Of a stretch of 64,000 nt of DNA, positions 1,635 through 24,082 are shown in pieces. The DNA lies in contig NZ_AUBQ01000012.1 of the NCBI RefSeq assembly GCF_000429325.1, positions 1 to 64,000 of the forward strand. The letters run 5' to 3'. The first letter of the stretch is position 1. The number at the start of each line of letters is the position of its first letter. The notes under the pieces are model-generated. The model did no database searches. It was not told where the DNA came from and was given only the letters and a program-made list of their open reading frames with translations. The DNA comes from Fundidesulfovibrio putealis DSM 16056. GTDB lineage: Bacteria; Desulfobacterota; Desulfovibrionia; Desulfovibrionales; Desulfovibrionaceae. The translations under genes were made by a program, and so were the position numbers.

Positions 1635-2520
1635 TTGTACTGAGAGAAATCGTGACTAGTGTTGCGTCCGCGTTTTTCGTCGATATGCTTGGCACGGTGA
1701 TACCAGAGCAATTCGTAAATTCTGCCCGCTAATAAGTATAGACGAATTTTGAGGTCGTGACACTAGTTTGACCGCGCAACAGGATGAAAATCTTTTTTAA
1801 TTCGTTATCTGGTTTGATCGTGATGTGCGGCTTGTGCCCCCCGTGCTTATCAAGCATGTGCTTTGCGTAGAGAATTAATTGGCCAGCCATCTCAGTTGGC
1901 GGCAATTCATAGTCAACCAATCCAGTCCCGAGGGCGCTGCGGGGCATCCCATCATACTCGGTGGATTCTGGGTTCTGGACCAAAATCAGGCCCCCTTCCC
2001 CCTTGATGGCCCGAATTCCCAGGGTGCCGTCATTCCCTGTGCCAGAGAGCACGATGCCAATGGCCTTGTCACCTTGGTCCTGGGCCAGGGAGCGGAAGAA
2101 GAAGTCAATAGGCAGACGTTGGCCTCGGGGGGAAGACGGCTCAAGCAATTGGAGCGCGCCATCTATGAAGGCCATGTCGCGGTTGGGCGGGATGATGTAG
2201 ATGCAGTTGGGCTTGACCACCATTCCGTCCGCCACTTCGTAGACCTTCATGGTGGTATAGCGCTGAATAATATCCGTGAGGATGCTCTTGTGGTCTGGGG
2301 CCAGATGTTGCACCAGCACAAAGGCCATTCCTGGATCGGTATCGGTGGGCATGCCAGAGAAGAATGCCTCAAAAGCCGCCAGTCCTCCTGCGGAAGCGCC
2401 GATCCCGACGACGGGGAAAGATGGCACAGGGGCCTTCACAGGCTCTCTGGTGGGCGTTTCTGCCGAAGGTTCAGGGCTCGTCTTGGGTTTAGACTTCGGC
2501 GGTGCCTGTTTCTTGGCCAT
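1635..2520 (-). pseudogene. cheB-cheR-type chemotaxis gene, disrupted by two insertions
   Basis: The remaining frame encodes a CheB methylesterase domain with catalytic Ser in GIGASAGG, His in VQHLAPDH and Asp in SGTGNDGT. The product ends in LKKIFILLRGQTS, where CheB-CheR fusion proteins normally run on into a CheR methyltransferase. The continuation SHDFSQYK reappears at 1635-1660, after a 101-bp insertion, and is then cut by the IS1182 element. The CheR part would lie left of the window. The start at 2520 is chosen because GGAG lies 8 bases upstream; the first 45 or so residues are a Pro/Lys-rich linker. In the present state a stop at 1729 gives a 263-aa CheB-only product. Confidence 0.8.
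1661..1761. mobile_element. 101-bp MITE-like insertion
   Basis: The insertion is flanked by direct repeats ACTAGT at 1655-1660 and 1762-1767. Its ends are imperfect 21-bp inverted repeats (13 of 21 positions match, starting GT and closing with TTCGTC). It carries no gene. Removing it with one ACTAGT restores a continuous cheB-cheR frame reading QTSHDFSQYK. It is distinct from the IS1182 element 26 bp away and shares no end sequence with it. Confidence 0.65.
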
Positions 2521-2870
2521 TTTAATATCTCCATATCTTGTCGGCAGGCTCGCATGCACTGAGAGAGTTGATGTCTTTCCAGCAGAACCTAGCTTGCAAG
2601 ACATATCATGTCTCACTTCTGGCGATAGTGGGCAAGCATTGAAATGGTGATATACAGAACACATGTGTCCTTCCAAGTGGATGGCCAGGTGGAGTAGCCC
2701 CCTTTTAGACCGGACAGGCTGGCCATGCTTCTTGTGGCCTCATTGTTGAGTGCATGACCGTAGTAGGGACTCTGGAACAATTTAAATCATAACTGAATGT
2801 TACGACCTTCTGTCGCGGTAGAGACCACCCTTTCGGGTGGCCCCCCGCACAGATCCCAGCGAGCGGACGT
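2521..2870. other. intergenic stretch between cheB remnant and relaxase remnant
   Basis: No credible gene is seen. A small perfect hairpin, ccaccc-tttc-gggtgg, lies at 2825-2840. The junction between the chromosomal cheB gene and the plasmid-like remnant must lie in or near this stretch, but no repeat marks it. Confidence 0.4.
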
Positions 2871-3502
2871 CTATAGCTCCAGCCCAATCTCTTTGCTTCG
2901 ATCCCTCGGCTGAAGCCGGAGGACGTTGCCCTTAAGCCTAACAGCCTTGCCCCACTTCGCTCGGGCAAAGAGCATGGCAGCTTCCTGAGTCGTCTCGTCA
3001 TGCGCAGTGAACGCGATCTCCTTGGCCATGTCCCGGATCATACCGCCGTTGGCCAAGTGGATGAACACAATCCCACTGGCGTCGATCGAGCTGGTGAATC
3101 ATGGCGGGGCAATCGCTCAGGGTGGATCATGTTGTAGGCCACGTGCATGTGGAGGTTGTTCGTATTCTTGTGAACGCCGCAATGGCGCTGGTGCTCGGAT
3201 AACCCAATGGTCTTGGCGAATTCTTCCTCGATGGCAATGAACATCTCTGGGTCAGCCGTGCCTCATCCTCTGGTCGAAAGCTCACGATGAGGTGGTATGT
3301 CTTCTCCTTGCTGGTTCGTGTGTTCATGGCCTGGGTGTCGACCGCCTCCTGGATGCCCAGGGCGTAATCGTCACCGGCCAGACATCCAGTGCACCAGCGC
3401 AGTAAGGATTTTCTCGCCTGGATGGTCTGCTGCGGCGATATAGCGGGCCAAGCGCCGGTAGTCGTCATTCTCCGGCTTCTGGAGGACACGTCGACTGATC
3501 AT
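2871..3502 (-). pseudogene. MOBP-type relaxase (mobilization nuclease), frameshifted remnant
   Basis: Read on the minus strand, three successive frames together give a relaxase N-terminus. It starts MISRRVLQKPENDDYRR at 3502. A frameshift near 3385 leads into TSKEKTYHLIVSFRPEDEA. A second near 3245 leads into the block EEFAKTIGLSEHQRHCGVHK, followed by a His-rich NNLHMHVAYN stretch typical of the relaxase metal-binding motif. A third near 3110 leads into a short C-terminal piece ending at 2871. The catalytic C-terminal part is missing. It follows the TraJ/MobC-like gene and the oriT, the usual mob order. It cannot be functional as it stands. Confidence 0.8.
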
Positions 3503-14428: not shown

Positions 14429-14880
14429 ACCCGCCCCCTGAAATCCCAAACTCGTCCGAATCGACACAATCGATAAAACGTGACCGCCGGGTCATACCCT
14501 CACGATACTTGCTCGACAAGCAGAATATGCTACTGTCGGGGTGGAGTATTCTTACCCATCGGCGCGTTGCGTGCTCACTGCTCCAGGCAGCGTGGCATGC
14601 GTGAATGAGTTCCGCTGTTCCTGCACGCAAGAACAATCAGTCCGCAAACCTGGGCCACCATCCCGGTGGCTGGAGTGAATGAGATTACAAAATTCTTCGA
14701 ACACATGTGATCCGCTTACGCCGAAAAACCTCCCGATTCCCTCTGAGATAGACCGCATCGCGTCTTTCACCCGCTATTCTATCTACATTTCTAATTTGAC
14801 CTATCACGCATATCAATGTGATGTGCACAAGAGTCATATCTCTCAAACAATGCACGGTATTTCCCATCATGAGGGCAAGC
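14429..14880. other. divergent promoter region, chemoreceptor / TusA operon
   Basis: This 450-bp AT-richer gap separates the leftward chemoreceptor from the rightward sulfur-carrier operon, so it must hold both promoters. No unambiguous promoter, operator or RNA is seen, and no open frame has a good ribosome-binding site. Confidence 0.4.
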
Positions 14881-15138
14881 ATGCGGGAACGCTATCCCGA
14901 ACACTGGCAGTTCGACGACGAGTTCGACGGCGGTGAGGAGACCTGCGGACGGGTCATCATCAACCTGTACACCTACCTGCTGCCCCAGCCGCGCGGCATC
15001 AAGGTGCTGCTTATCTCCAGGGACCCGGCCGCGCCCATCGAGTTCCCGGCTTGGTGCCGCATGACCGGCAACCCGCTCCTGGAAATTGCCCACCCGTTCT
15101 ATCTCATCCACTATAAACCAGAACAGATACAGGAGTGA
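14881..15138 (+). CDS. TusA-like sulfurtransferase domain protein
   Basis: This 85-aa protein has a TusA/SirA-like fold pattern. The segment DGGEETCGRVIINLYTYL matches the position where TusA has its CPxP motif, but the cysteine is followed by Gly rather than Pro. A second conserved block, PAWCRMTGNPLLEI, matches the end of the fold. Canonical TusA carries persulfide sulfur on the first Cys. The ATG at 14881 has GAGGG five bases upstream. It is the first gene of a tight operon; the next start is 4 bp after its stop. The role as a sulfur (or selenium) carrier is inferred. Confidence 0.65.
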   Translation: MRERYPEHWQFDDEFDGGEETCGRVIINLYTYLLPQPRGIKVLLISRDPAAPIEFPAWCRMTGNPLLEIAHPFYLIHYKPEQIQE

Positions 15139-15142
15139 TCCC

Positions 15143-15508
15143 ATGGCCAACACCTTCTGCGTAAGCATCACCCACTGCCGCACCGACGGCGACAAAGCCA
15201 CCCTGGGCTTCGTGGTAGCCAACGCCGCCCAGGGCAGCGAGAAGGAGACTCTGGTGTTCCTGAGCACCGACGGCGTGTACTGCGCCGTCAAGGGCGAGGC
15301 CGAGAAGATCGACGAAGGCGCGCCGTTTGCCCCCCTGAAGGAGCTCATCAACAAGTTCCTGGGCGCTGGCGGGAAAGTCTACGTGTGCACCCCTTGCCTG
15401 AAGAAGCGCGGTCTTTCCGAGGCGGACCTGATAGAGGGGACCACCCCCGCAGGCGGAGCCGCCCTGGTGGAATGGCTTTGCAACGGCTCGCCTTGCGTGA
15501 CGTACTAG
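15143..15508 (+). CDS. DsrE-family protein
   Basis: This 121-aa protein follows the DsrE/DsrF-like pattern: a beta strand followed by TDGDKATLGFVVANAA, then KETLVFLSTDGVYCAVKG, and a cysteine pair in VYVCTPCLKKRG. Another Cys lies near the C-terminus (GSPCVTY). DsrE-type proteins pass sulfur to and from TusA-like partners, and here TusA-like genes lie on both sides. AGGAG lies 7 bases before the ATG. Co-transcribed with its neighbours. Confidence 0.8.
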   Translation: MANTFCVSITHCRTDGDKATLGFVVANAAQGSEKETLVFLSTDGVYCAVKGEAEKIDEGAPFAPLKELINKFLGAGGKVYVCTPCLKKRGLSEADLIEGTTPAGGAALVEWLCNGSPCVTY

Positions 15509-15571
15509 CCCGGTTCGCGAAACACTTTCATGAACGGGCCGCCCCAGGGCGGCCCCGCGCGAGGAGCCTCC

Positions 15572-16321
15572 ATGCCCGGCTACGTCCCCCCTTCCCTTCC
15601 GGATCAGGTCTTCGACGGCGGCGACCTGGACTGCGGTTCCGGCCTCATCCTGCTCATCCGGGAAAACATGCTGGCAGTGCCCGTGGGCGGCGTGCTGGAG
15701 ATGCGCAGCCGCGAACCTACGGTGGCGAGCGACCTGCCCCCCTGGTGCCGCATGGCAGGGCACGAATACCTGGGCAGCGCCGAGGGCGACGGATACGCCC
15801 GTTATTTTGTTCGCAGGGGAGAGGTTGCCGCTGATTCGGACGCATCCGAGGCCAGGCAACTGGCCGAGGACAAGGAGAAGGCCAGGCAGTACGAATGGCG
15901 GCTGCGGGTGCGCCACGCCGGGCACCAGCACACCAAGGTCTACTGCCGCAACTTCGGCTGGGACCTGGGCCAGCCCGCCAGCTTCGAGGAAAAGGACACG
16001 CACCCCTGCGCCGTGGAAGCGCTGCTCGGGGCGCTGGGCGGCGCGCTCTGCTCCGGGTACGCCACCGAGTGCGCGCGCTCGGGCCTGGAAATCGACGACA
16101 TCGAGCTTACCGTGCGCGGCAAGTTAGGCAACATCCTGGCCCACATGGGCCTGGAAGACGGCGACCCATCTTTCTCGGCCATTGAGGTCAAATGCTTCGC
16201 CTCCACCATGGATGACGAGGACGGCGCCCGCAAAGCCTGGGAGCGCGCCGTAGCCCGCTCGCCCGTGGCGGCCACGCTGGCCAAGGCCGTGGACATAACC
16301 TTCAAATTCGCGGTGGTGTGA
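15572..16321 (+). CDS. TusA-OsmC fusion protein
   Basis: This 249-aa two-domain protein begins with a TusA-like domain (about residues 10-82) with the same CG motif (GGDLDCGSGLILLI) and WCRMAGHEYL block as the operon's first gene. After a charged linker (about 88-107) comes an OsmC/YhfA-like domain (about 108-249). This has the conserved Glu/Cys pattern HPCAVEALLGALGGALCSGY and a C-terminal domain of interlocking strands. OsmC proteins reduce peroxides with paired cysteines, while YhfA-like members are less defined. The start at 15572 has AGGAG upstream. Its stop is 2 bp before the next ATG, so translation is coupled. Confidence 0.8.
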   Translation: MPGYVPPSLPDQVFDGGDLDCGSGLILLIRENMLAVPVGGVLEMRSREPTVASDLPPWCRMAGHEYLGSAEGDGYARYFVRRGEVAADSDASEARQLAEDKEKARQYEWRLRVRHAGHQHTKVYCRNFGWDLGQPASFEEKDTHPCAVEALLGALGGALCSGYATECARSGLEIDDIELTVRGKLGNILAHMGLEDGDPSFSAIEVKCFASTMDDEDGARKAWERAVARSPVAATLAKAVDITFKFAVV

Positions 16322-16323
16322 TC

Positions 16324-17511
16324 ATGTTCGTCACAACCCAGGTGGGCAGCTGGCCCCGCTCCAGGCAGATGCTGAAGGCCCTTCGCGACAGGCGCATGGG
16401 CAGGATGACCCGCAAGGAGTTCGACCGCGTGGCCGACGACGCGGTTCGCACCACGGTGCGCATCCAGGAAGACGCTGGCCTGGACGTGGTGGTGGACGGC
16501 GAGCACCGCAGGGACAACTTCTACTCCTTCATCTCGGACAAGGTGGATGGCACGCGCATCATGACCCTGGCCGAGATGCTTGACGACGTGGAGGACAAAT
16601 CCGGCTTCGAGGAGATCCTCTCCACCCTGGACGTGCCCGCCTCGGCCATCAGCAACCCCACCTGCGTGGGCAGGCTTTCACGGCGCGAGCCCCTGGCCCT
16701 GGACGACTTCCACTTCGTCAAATCGCTCACGGACAAACCGGTGAAGATCACCCTGCCCGGCCCCTATCTCCTCAGCCGGGCCATGTGGGTGGGCGGACAC
16801 ACCAACAAGGCCTACGCCAACCAGCGCGCCATGGGCGACGACGTTGTGAACATCCTGCGGGAGGAACTCGGCGAACTGGCGCGCGCTGGCTGCGAGTTCG
16901 TGCAGTTCGACGAACCGGTGCTGACCGAAGTGGTCATGAGCGCGGAGTGCGGTCGCCGAACGTTCATGTGAGCAACCCTGGCCACCCGCCGTGACGTGGG
17001 TGAAGAACTTGGCTACGCGGCAGAGCTTATCAACAGGGTCATCGAAGGCATTGGCGACGTCGAGGGCGGACCGCGCGTGGGCCTACACATCTGCCGGGGC
17101 AACTGGAGCACCCGTGAGGACGTGCTGCTCACCGGCGACTACACGCCACTCCTGCCCGCGCTCACGAAGATGCGCGTGAGGCAGTTCGTGCTGGAATACG
17201 CCACGCCCAGGGCTGGCGAAATCCGGGTGGTGGGGGAAGCGCTCTCCGGGAACGTGCCGGGCACGGACGTCCCCAGGGAACTCGGCCTTGGCGTGGTCAA
17301 TCCGCGCACCGTGACCGTGGAGACCCCGGAGGAGATCGTGGCCAAGGCGGAGCTGGCCCTGGCCCACTACCGCCCTGAGCAATTGTTCCTGAACACCGAT
17401 TGCGGCTTCGGCTGCTTCGCCAACCGCTGCGTCAACGTGGAAGAGGTAGCTGCCGCCAAGATACGAAGCATCGTTCAGGCCGCCCGAATACTGAGGGAAC
17501 GCCACGGCTGA
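16324..17511 (+). CDS. MetE-like (cobalamin-independent methionine synthase family) probable selenoprotein
   Basis: The frame is 395 codons with a single in-frame TGA at 16969-16971 (codon 216). Family similarity continues in the same frame on both sides. Upstream are TTQVGSWPRS, VVVDGEHRRDNFYS and FVQFDEPVL. Downstream are LHICRGNW, FVLEYATPRAGE and LNTDCGFGCF. The zinc ligands of MetE (His-x-Cys, Glu, Cys) are all present. After the TGA, a 7-bp stem (16983-16989 with 16996-17002) caps a six-base loop, CGUGAC. Its GU falls 23-24 bases from the U of UGA, as I recall for the E. coli fdhF SECIS. I infer selenocysteine at residue 216 (FM-Sec-ATLA). The alternative is a nonsense mutation. The methyl donor and acceptor are unknown. 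Confidence 0.75.
16969..17003 (+). promoter_or_regulatory. SECIS-like element at in-frame TGA
   Basis: The TGA at 16969-16971 is followed by a hairpin: CACCCGC (16983-16989) pairs with GTGGGTG (16996-17002), including one G-U pair. The loop is CGTGAC, with G in its second position and GT at offsets 23-24. It meets the usual bacterial SECIS spacing rule, but lacks the bulged U seen in the E. coli element. No fold was computed. Confidence 0.65.
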
Positions 17512-23342: not shown

Positions 23343-23576
23343 GTGCTAAGGCATTATCCTGTGATTCTTCATACAGAGGACGGCGTGAGCTGCGGCGTGA
23401 CTGTGCCGGATTTCCCCGGCTGTTTCACGTCCGGCGAGACACTGGAGGAGGCGCTTTCAAACGTCCAAGGGGCGGTGGAGGCGTATCTGTTAATTCCCGG
23501 AGGGAGGGCGTCACCTCCCTCCGATCGGGCGGCATTATGTGAACATGTTAATAGAGCAGGTTCCTGCAAGTTTTAA
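23343..23576 (+). CDS. HicB-like antitoxin, apparently truncated, without HicA
   Basis: The first ~48 residues match HicB (YPVILHTEDG, then VTVPDFPGCFTSGETLEEAL). The usual C-terminal DNA-binding part is missing; the last ~28 residues are unrelated. The GTG start has GGAGG upstream and follows the lon stop by 18 bp. A G/C hairpin (ggagggagg and cctccctcc) lies within the last third. No hicA toxin gene is seen on either side. Its end overlaps the end of the convergent DsrE gene. It is either a relic or a free-standing partial antitoxin. Confidence 0.65.
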   Translation: MLRHYPVILHTEDGVSCGVTVPDFPGCFTSGETLEEALSNVQGAVEAYLLIPGGRASPPSDRAALCEHVNRAGSCKF

Positions 23577-23987
23577 ATACTGCTCCGCGTTCATGATCTC
23601 AACGCCCTCGATCAGTTCGTCTTCCGGTATTTTCATCATATCCAGCGTCATCTTGCAGGCATAAATATTTACGCCTTCAAGTTGCGCCATCTCAAAAATC
23701 TCTTCGAGACTCGGGATGTTCGCATCCTCAATTTGTTTTTCCATCATGCTGGTGGCGATGTTCGACATGCCTGGAATTGCTCCCAGGAATCCTGGCGGGT
23801 GGAATTTGAGTTTGGACATGTACCCCTTGCGGACTACGTTTATGCCCATAAATGTGTAGAATAGAGAAACATCATGGCCGAGCCGTCGTGCGTTAAGCGC
23901 CAACACGAGGGATGGGTATGCTCCGTCCAAAGTACCTTTTGAACATATGAATGTGTAGCGCTGTTTGTCTTCATTCACGGTTTCCAT
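23535..23987 (-). CDS. DsrE/DsrF-like (peroxiredoxin-like) family protein
   Basis: This 150-aa protein has a DsrE-type fold. The first strand is YTFICSKGTLDGAYPSLVLA, then DVSLFYTFMGINVV. A long central insert of about 50 residues is rich in Met (FLGAIPGMSNIATSMMEK). The conserved Cys lies in NIYACKMTLDMM. This longer form is the DsrE/DsrF/DrsH-like group, usually linked to sulfur redox chemistry. The ATG at 23987 has GGAGAAGG upstream. It converges on the truncated HicB gene. Confidence 0.8.
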   Translation of the reverse strand: METVNEDKQRYTFICSKGTLDGAYPSLVLALNARRLGHDVSLFYTFMGINVVRKGYMSKLKFHPPGFLGAIPGMSNIATSMMEKQIEDANIPSLEEIFEMAQLEGVNIYACKMTLDMMKIPEDELIEGVEIMNAEQYLKLAGTCSINMFT

Positions 23988-24082
23988 GTGACCTTCTCCT
24001 CTCGGCAAGAGTACTGGTTGGAGGTTATATCCCACCCTCGTATGCCGTTTGCAGGAAATGAAGTCAAACAACAGCTGCCAGT

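Follow-up and report, generated by a model that had tools for sequence, protein, structure and literature searches.

Within the window, the 64,000-nucleotide stretch of DNA analyzed here (bases 1 to 64000 of contig C5 in a genome of 4.7 Mb that is 99.99% complete), the frame at 16324 to 17511 raises the question of whether an internal TGA ends a gene or is read as selenocysteine (Sec). The frame, on the forward strand like all features below unless stated otherwise, has two stops only, the TGA at 16969 to 16971 (codon 216) and the terminal TGA at 17509 to 17511. The readthrough product of 395 amino acids and about 43 kDa matches Pfam Meth_synt_2 (E 1.1e-29), and each half matches that family when scanned separately (E 2.5e-23 upstream of the TGA and 1.7e-5 downstream). 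Because both halves match, one MetE-like frame spans the TGA. This result agrees with an earlier note, made from the sequence alone, that described one gene split by a single in-frame TGA with MetE-like motifs on either side. From the reading frame and a codon alignment we designated 16969 to 16971 as a putative Sec codon, and the product as a MetE-like zinc methyltransferase that has Sec as residue 216, here called MetE(Sec).

Conservation of codon 216

A search with the readthrough protein of a collection containing one genome per species (84,980 species) yielded 72 loci. At codon 216, TGA is present in 52 of these loci, Cys (TGT/TGC) in 12, and Arg (CGC) in 2; one has a gap, and five do not reach the codon. 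TGA or Cys is thus found at this column in 64 of the 72 loci, and TAA or TAG in none of them. Cys in homologues was what the earlier note had expected here, and a UGA in a conserved frame with Cys homologues is a pattern by which selenoproteins are recognized. In the 149 nearest genomes, 17 family loci (the window included) cover codon 216, and all 17 have TGA. Two further family matches end short of codon 216, and the other matches in these genomes are distant MetE genes. Together, the 52 loci of other species and the 17 from the nearest genomes make a set of 69 TGA loci, of which 62 are distinct because 7 of the 17 lie on the same contigs as named loci. Over all 100 loci matched by tblastn, the counts are TGA 69, TGT 10, TGC 3, CGC 2, TGG 1, gap 6, and not covered 9. 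One of the TGC loci (L023) and the TGG locus (L026) are canonical MetE loci that align poorly at this column.

The TGA rows of the tree carry record labels of Thermodesulfobacteriota, Bacteroidota, Acidobacteriota, Armatimonadota, Chloroflexota, Myxococcota, and Pseudomonadota, although such labels can be in error for metagenome bins. Cultured carriers include Fundidesulfovibrio agrisoli SG106 (L058) and Desulfopila aestuarii DSM 18488 (L074). The 12 Cys loci are 11 from Poribacteria and one from Dehalococcoidia. Sec rows fall on one side of a branch with support of 96/99, and Cys and Arg rows fall on the opposite side; L111 and L113 are long branches. The earlier note suggested a Cys-to-Sec swap. 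An exchange of Cys and Sec at this column is evident, and the tree is compatible with either direction of change. The two Arg loci (L105 and L106, labeled 'bacterium' and UBP9) form a sister lineage with CGC at the Sec/Cys column and with all of the zinc and homocysteine residues present.

A sequencing error, with TGC or TGG as the actual codon, was a case raised by the earlier note that would remove the Sec codon. This explanation is untenable because 52 loci in the records of other species carry TGA, and it was rejected.

Several copies of the gene contain defects. A Desulfonatronum metagenome-assembled genome has a decayed copy at 2184 to 3007 (L107, on the same contig as L017) in which the UGA and the downstream hairpin are still there and the middle of the operon is missing, so that the TusA-like gene runs on, in another frame, into the MetE gene's second half. 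Either a deletion or an assembly fault may account for this state. Stops were also found in the aligned part of L108 (six) and L099 (two). Decay or a fault affects the copies in L107 and L108, and therefore the gene can be lost.

The downstream hairpin and the selenocysteine machinery

Immediately 3' of the UGA is a hairpin (16983 to 17002) in which bases 16983 to 16989 pair with 16996 to 17002 around the loop CGUGAC (16990 to 16995). We designated it a SECIS hairpin on the basis of its fold, pair counts, synonymous constraint, comparison with Escherichia coli fdhF, and absence in Cys forms. It begins 11 bases past the UGA, a spacing like that of fdhF, as had been proposed. The seven-pair stem, the loop, and the G and U at positions 23 and 24, counted from the U of the UGA as in fdhF (UGA at codon 140), are all present in the window as the earlier note described. 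However, U24 is kept in only 26 of the 55 distinct 40-mers from the 69 TGA loci. Of these 55, 52 retain the full five-pair core, 51 have G23, and all have C17; the window also has C at position 17, in contrast to the U of fdhF. The core stem is broken in three Bacteroidota loci (L084, L088, and L089), one of which (L084) adopts a different hairpin with a bulge.

When 30 of the 69 sequences were aligned, the stem positions paired in 85.7% of cells, versus 31 to 50% when the partner is slid. Strict covariation is weak, with only two pairs that have changes on both sides in this 30-locus alignment. Folding of the region after the TGA recovered the stem and loop, but taken alone, the window hairpin has an unremarkable fold energy (z -0.74), and Rfam, searched up to E 10, gave no SECIS match at this site.

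The best evidence that the hairpin stretch may have a role as RNA comes from a synonymous-codon scan of 35 genes (34 of the 52 TGA loci plus the window). Codons 221 to 230 have a synonymous diversity of 0.367, versus 0.641 expected from within-gene shuffles (z -18.5), the lowest of any 10-codon stretch in the gene. Over all 10-codon stretches, z has a mean of -2.8 (standard deviation, 3.2), which is negative presumably due to the kinship of the genes. Thr221 is ACC in 34 of the 35 genes, and Arg222 is CGC in 32. The second lowest diversity was observed over codons 255 to 268 (17086 to 17127), which encode the zinc motif HICRGNWS (z about -12.6 for codons 257 to 266). This may reflect either biased codon usage in a conserved motif or another signal in the RNA.

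At the same place in the 12 Cys forms, the five-pair core is intact in none (zero to two of the five pairs); the two Arg forms have three of the five. The Cys form L111 has its own GC-rich hairpin, which is different and ordinary for its composition (z -0.32). Thus, the conservation in relatives that the earlier note sought was found, in the pairing, the codon constraint, and the core, and the hairpin is missing from the Cys forms. Despite the Rfam result and the ordinary fold energy, there is a hairpin just 3' of the UGA that is under selection, as is required of a SECIS element.

These results bear on whether the UGA is a true stop that yields two polypeptides or marks a split or decayed gene. 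It might be argued for such a stop that a list of open reading frames includes a GTG-started frame past the TGA (16996 to 17511), and that L107 is decayed and L108 and L099 have stops in the aligned part. However, the GTG at 16996 falls within the 3' arm of the hairpin. Furthermore, the TGA is retained over the records of several phyla and is never TAA or TAG in the comparison set of 69 loci, sister lineages have Cys, and the hairpin is under synonymous constraint. We rejected a pseudogene or a two-gene split because TGA recurs in 52 loci of other species and the hairpin is constrained, and we assign a true stop a negligible probability.

All four components of the bacterial Sec machinery, which the earlier note expected in the genome, were found with profile and tRNA searches: selA (588 bits; cutoff, 268), selB (366 bits; cutoff, 242), tRNA-Sec, the selC product (83.9 bits; gathering score, 47), and selD (335 bits; cutoff, 125). 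The selD match contains one TGA. A second tRNA match, at C28:630678-630767, also scored above the tRNA-Sec gathering score (49.8 bits). SelB was asked of 51 chosen genomes and scored above the cutoff in 48, namely, 36 of 37 TGA carriers, 11 of 12 genomes with the Cys form, and 1 of 2 with the Arg form. selA was above the cutoff in 123 of the 149 relatives and is common in this order. Because SelB also occurs in carriers of the Cys form and selA is so widespread, the machinery alone is not discriminating. Gene location beside sel genes is more telling than the mere presence of the machinery. In L090 (labeled Rhodospirillales), selA, selB, and selD are directly downstream of MetE(Sec). In L091 (labeled Betaproteobacteria), selA is downstream of it and is cut by the contig end. 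In L080 (labeled Marinifilum), genes for a cysteine desulfurase, yedF, and selD are upstream of the operon; this desulfurase also scores 371 bits to the selenocysteine lyase SclA, below the cutoff of 525.

UGA recoding by other means exists in general, and the codon might instead be a regulated or leaky stop that is read by another tRNA, for Trp or Cys. Against this reading are a hairpin at fdhF-like spacing with codon constraint, SelB in 36 of the 37 TGA carriers asked, and Cys in sister homologues that have no such hairpin. In addition, the neighboring TusA-OsmC gene itself ends in TGA. We regard decoding by another tRNA as highly improbable.

The Sec-containing MetE-like protein that the earlier note proposed is therefore supported by TGA or Cys in 64 of 72 loci, the presence of selA, selB, selC, and selD, and the conserved hairpin. 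From the comparative sequence evidence, insertion of Sec at codon 216 appears nearly certain. Very probably, the gene encodes a selenoprotein that is a single-barrel MetE-like zinc enzyme, with UGA216 read as Sec by SelB and tRNA-Sec under the hairpin.

Active site, operon, and possible chemistry

The active site was evaluated with an alignment of 45 proteins (of 48, L088, L095, and L103 were left out, and L097 and L111 were trimmed). Seven residues are identical in 45/45 proteins, Arg and gap forms included. Three are predicted ligands of homocysteine, from the roles of E. coli MetE residues in the available part of PMC7857596: Ser9 (16348 to 16350; S433 of E. coli MetE) for the carboxylate and Glu60 (16501 to 16503; E484) and Asp196 (16909 to 16911; D599) for the amino group. 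The other four, His255 and Cys257 (17086 to 17094, aligned to the HxC of 3RPD), Glu291 (17194 to 17196), and Cys360 (17401 to 17403), are predicted zinc ligands from alignment with 3RPD and with Thermotoga maritima MetE. They form the His, Cys, Glu, Cys set of MetE, and all are downstream of the TGA, as the earlier note had stated. Sec is not a substitute zinc ligand because the MetE zinc residues are invariant in the 45 sequences, and Sec as a stand-in for a zinc Cys was rejected given that all four ligands are present besides Sec216. An intramolecular Cys-Sec pair as a general feature was also rejected; the loop Cys, C209, is absent in L063, L066, L076, L090, L091, L102, and the Cys forms.

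The protein belongs to the Meth_synt_2 superfamily by fold as well as by sequence. The top structural hits for its model were MetE and 3RPD, a MesD protein (Foldseek to 1xpg, E 7e-21; TM-score of 0.70 by query). The stretch with Sec216 aligned to neither 3RPD nor T. maritima MetE, and its loop is about 20 residues longer than the 3RPD counterpart (profile positions 201 to 231 versus chain positions 196 to 205). The residues around Sec216 read RTFM-U-ATLATR. In an AlphaFold model (mean pLDDT of 86; block means of 55 to 76 in the Sec216 loop), Sec216 is between helices 199 to 209 and 225 to 240, behind the strand 192 to 196 that ends at Asp196. Because the loop in this model comes after a barrel strand, at the strand's C-terminal end, we infer that Sec216 may be near the zinc.

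The earlier note considered the gene alone, and that description stands, but the gene in fact ends a four-gene operon with the order TusA-like, DsrE-like, TusA-OsmC, and MetE(Sec) in one direction. The TusA-like small protein (14869 to 15138; 89 amino acids from ATG 14869, with an alternative ATG at 14881) was located with the TusA-like open reading frame of L077 by tblastn (62% identity, E 3e-32). It has two Cys, in a CG motif and a WC motif, and had no Pfam or NCBIfam match of its own; its name reflects a weak likeness (E about 1e-5) to the TusA half of the TusA-OsmC gene. The DsrE-like protein (15143 to 15508; 121 amino acids) has a CTPC motif, matches Pfam DsrE (E 8e-16), and is kept in the operon of relatives. 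The TusA-OsmC fusion (15530 to 16321; 263 amino acids from ATG 15530, with ATG 15572 possible) was designated from Pfam matches and motif alignment, with OsmC above the cutoff (44.3 bits) and TusA slightly below it (27.9 bits; cutoff, 28.6). It stops two bases ahead of the ATG at 16324. Among relatives, either Cys or Ser occupies the HPC position of its OsmC half.

Canonical TusA has a CPxP motif. Both TusA-like domains (in 14869 to 15138 and in 15530 to 16321) have CG in the CPxP place, plus the second Cys (WC). There was no sign of Sec in TusA-OsmC, the two Cys of the TusA half remaining Cys in the matches that reach them. Matches to TusA-OsmC contain a stop in four loci, within the first 13 residues in three and at residue 194 in L079. 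Another DsrE-like protein (Pfam DrsE_2, E 6e-40) is encoded on the minus strand at 23535 to 24071, 6 kb downstream and apart from the operon.

Among the 45 of 52 TGA loci with at least 1,700 bases of upstream sequence, TusA-OsmC was found upstream in 42, DsrE in 42, TusA-like in 40, and all three in 40. The five loci without all three are L066 and L102, in which the separate TusA-like gene is missing upstream, L090, L091, and the decayed L107. In L090 (4199 to 4900) and L091 (1997 to 2668), an ArsR-type regulator with a rhodanese-like part is just 5' of MetE(Sec), in place of the TusA, DsrE, and OsmC genes. Of the 149 relatives, 16 have a full MetE(Sec), and the same 16 have TusA-OsmC at more than 120 bits; the best score in the 133 others is 42 bits. 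The MetE gene was matched only in part in three further relatives (G109, G121, and G135). Ten Cys loci have enough upstream sequence (9 Poribacteria and 1 Dehalococcoidia), and TusA-OsmC is 1.2 to 3.5 kb upstream in 6 of them, all Poribacteria; at L111, from Dehalococcoidia, the OsmC-like matches are all weak.

Canonical MetE was not found in the genome, in which the sole match was the Sec gene itself. There is a MetH-like gene at C5:73261-75636 (449 bits, below the TIGR02082 cutoff of 1010.85), which does not have the C-terminal reactivation part (the match covers profile positions 3 to 862 of 1182). A TAG inside the MetH-like match is the stop that ends its own frame. Because the genome has this MetH-like gene, it is unlikely that MetE(Sec) would be the only methionine synthase, and we judge a housekeeping methionine synthase role unlikely. 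The predicted homocysteine-binding residues S9, E60, and D196 are invariant, and the protein may be able to methylate homocysteine.

It is possible that the protein is a selenoprotein but not a methyltransferase, i.e., a MetE barrel converted to redox chemistry or to the transfer of sulfur or selenium, in which Sec216 trades persulfide sulfur or selenium with TusA and DsrE. The operon partners belong to sulfur-carrier families, no corrinoid or folate protein was found among the identified operon genes and neighbors, the L080 operon adjoins selD, yedF, and a cysteine desulfurase, and the genome retains the MetH-like gene, all of which are consistent with this possibility. However, all seven MetE zinc and homocysteine residues are invariant in the 45 sequences, which fits the retention of thiol-methyl chemistry, and L090 and L091 carry MetE(Sec) without TusA, DsrE, or OsmC in the available sequence. 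A non-methyltransferase function is less likely than not but merits serious consideration.

We favor a Sec-assisted transfer of methyl or sulfur at a zinc-thiolate site. SelB and tRNA-Sec would decode UGA216, steered by the hairpin that starts 11 bases after it, and the barrel would hold zinc together with the thiol or selenol of an amino acid, for example homocysteine. In the family-specific loop behind the substrate-binding Asp196, Sec216 might then use its selenol to accept either a methyl group or sulfane sulfur or selenium, donated by the carrier proteins or by some other source, and hand the group on to the zinc-bound thiolate. Sec216 would thus provide an additional nucleophile next to the thiol or selenol on zinc, serving either a methyl relay or the exchange of sulfur or selenium with carriers. 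We consider zinc methyl transfer, with Sec216 as the nucleophile of the relay, less likely than not and propose it tentatively. It is rather doubtful, though conceivable, that the operon is a selenium- or sulfur-relay system centered on a Sec-dependent zinc methyltransferase, in which TusA, DsrE, and the OsmC fusion feed or unload the barrel and Sec216 is a methyl or chalcogen relay, for example, in the salvage of selenium or sulfur from selenomethionine and other methylated compounds. If this is true, then Sec in such a relay would function in group transfer instead of redox chemistry. Most of the uncharacterized selenoproteins listed in the available part of PMC13188914 are thought to be redox proteins. 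Sec would here be added to an intact zinc-thiolate methyltransferase site, and therefore the use of Sec in group transfer is directly testable; the linked TusA, DsrE, and OsmC genes provide a handle on the pathway.

Comparison with methionine synthases and known selenoproteins

The closest described enzymes are the core synthases MesA to MesD and core-MetE (in the available part of PMC7857596; see also PMC7005905), which have in common with MetE(Sec) a single barrel, the MetE zinc and homocysteine residues, and no N-terminal folate half. MetE(Sec) differs from them in carrying Sec, in a loop longer than that of 3RPD, and in its location in an operon of sulfur carriers. Furthermore, nine named NCBIfam methionine synthase models (June 2026) match, and none is above its cutoff (the best, NF003317, has 174 bits versus 406); none of the nine is named as a selenoprotein. 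The words selenocysteine, TusA, and OsmC each have 0 occurrences in the available text of PMC7857596. Canonical MetE of E. coli and T. maritima has the same catalytic barrel and active-site residues but is about twice the size, with a second barrel, and the Sec stretch did not align to it. With a single catalytic domain and without the N-terminal folate-binding barrel, MetE(Sec) does not have the makeup of a folate-dependent MetE.

With known bacterial selenoprotein families (PMC13188914, in the part available), MetE(Sec) has in common a UGA, a hairpin immediately downstream, and Sec/Cys exchange. The earlier note did not take this for a standard selenoprotein family, and it is indeed absent from the 119 prokaryotic families in Table 1 of that 2026 paper, which has no MetE or Meth_synt_2 family and whose methyltransferases belong to other families by table names and domain identifiers. 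The nine new families in the available part of PMC12013277 include no MetE-like one, the accessible portions of PMC9312934 and PMC2398784 mention no MetE-like selenoprotein, and PMC11124144, on a sulfate reducer, treats metE and selenoproteins separately in its available text. No MetE-like selenoprotein was found among the open-licence literature matches listed; earlier mention elsewhere is possible. We rate MetE(Sec), by its sequence relationships, as a probable new selenoprotein family within a known enzyme superfamily, with carriers that are sulfate reducers and genomes labeled as other phyla. Gene callers likely cut the gene at the UGA, and databases may hold it as two fragments.

The type 1 mlp clusters described in the available part of PMC10418091 offer a further comparison. 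They contain barrel methyltransferases of the UroD/MetE superfamily that are tied by context to Sec machinery and to methyl-sulfur or methyl-selenium chemistry. The mlp methyltransferases are MtaA-like and depend on a corrinoid, the cluster also encoding a corrinoid protein, and Sec is reported in other enzymes of these clusters and not in the methyltransferases. One mlp-linked barrel catalyzed methyl transfer from methylcobalamin to selenide. Because the mlp clusters link related barrels to Sec machinery, one of them with this activity, a role of MetE(Sec) in methyl-selenium or methyl-sulfur salvage is by analogy an attractive guess, and no more.
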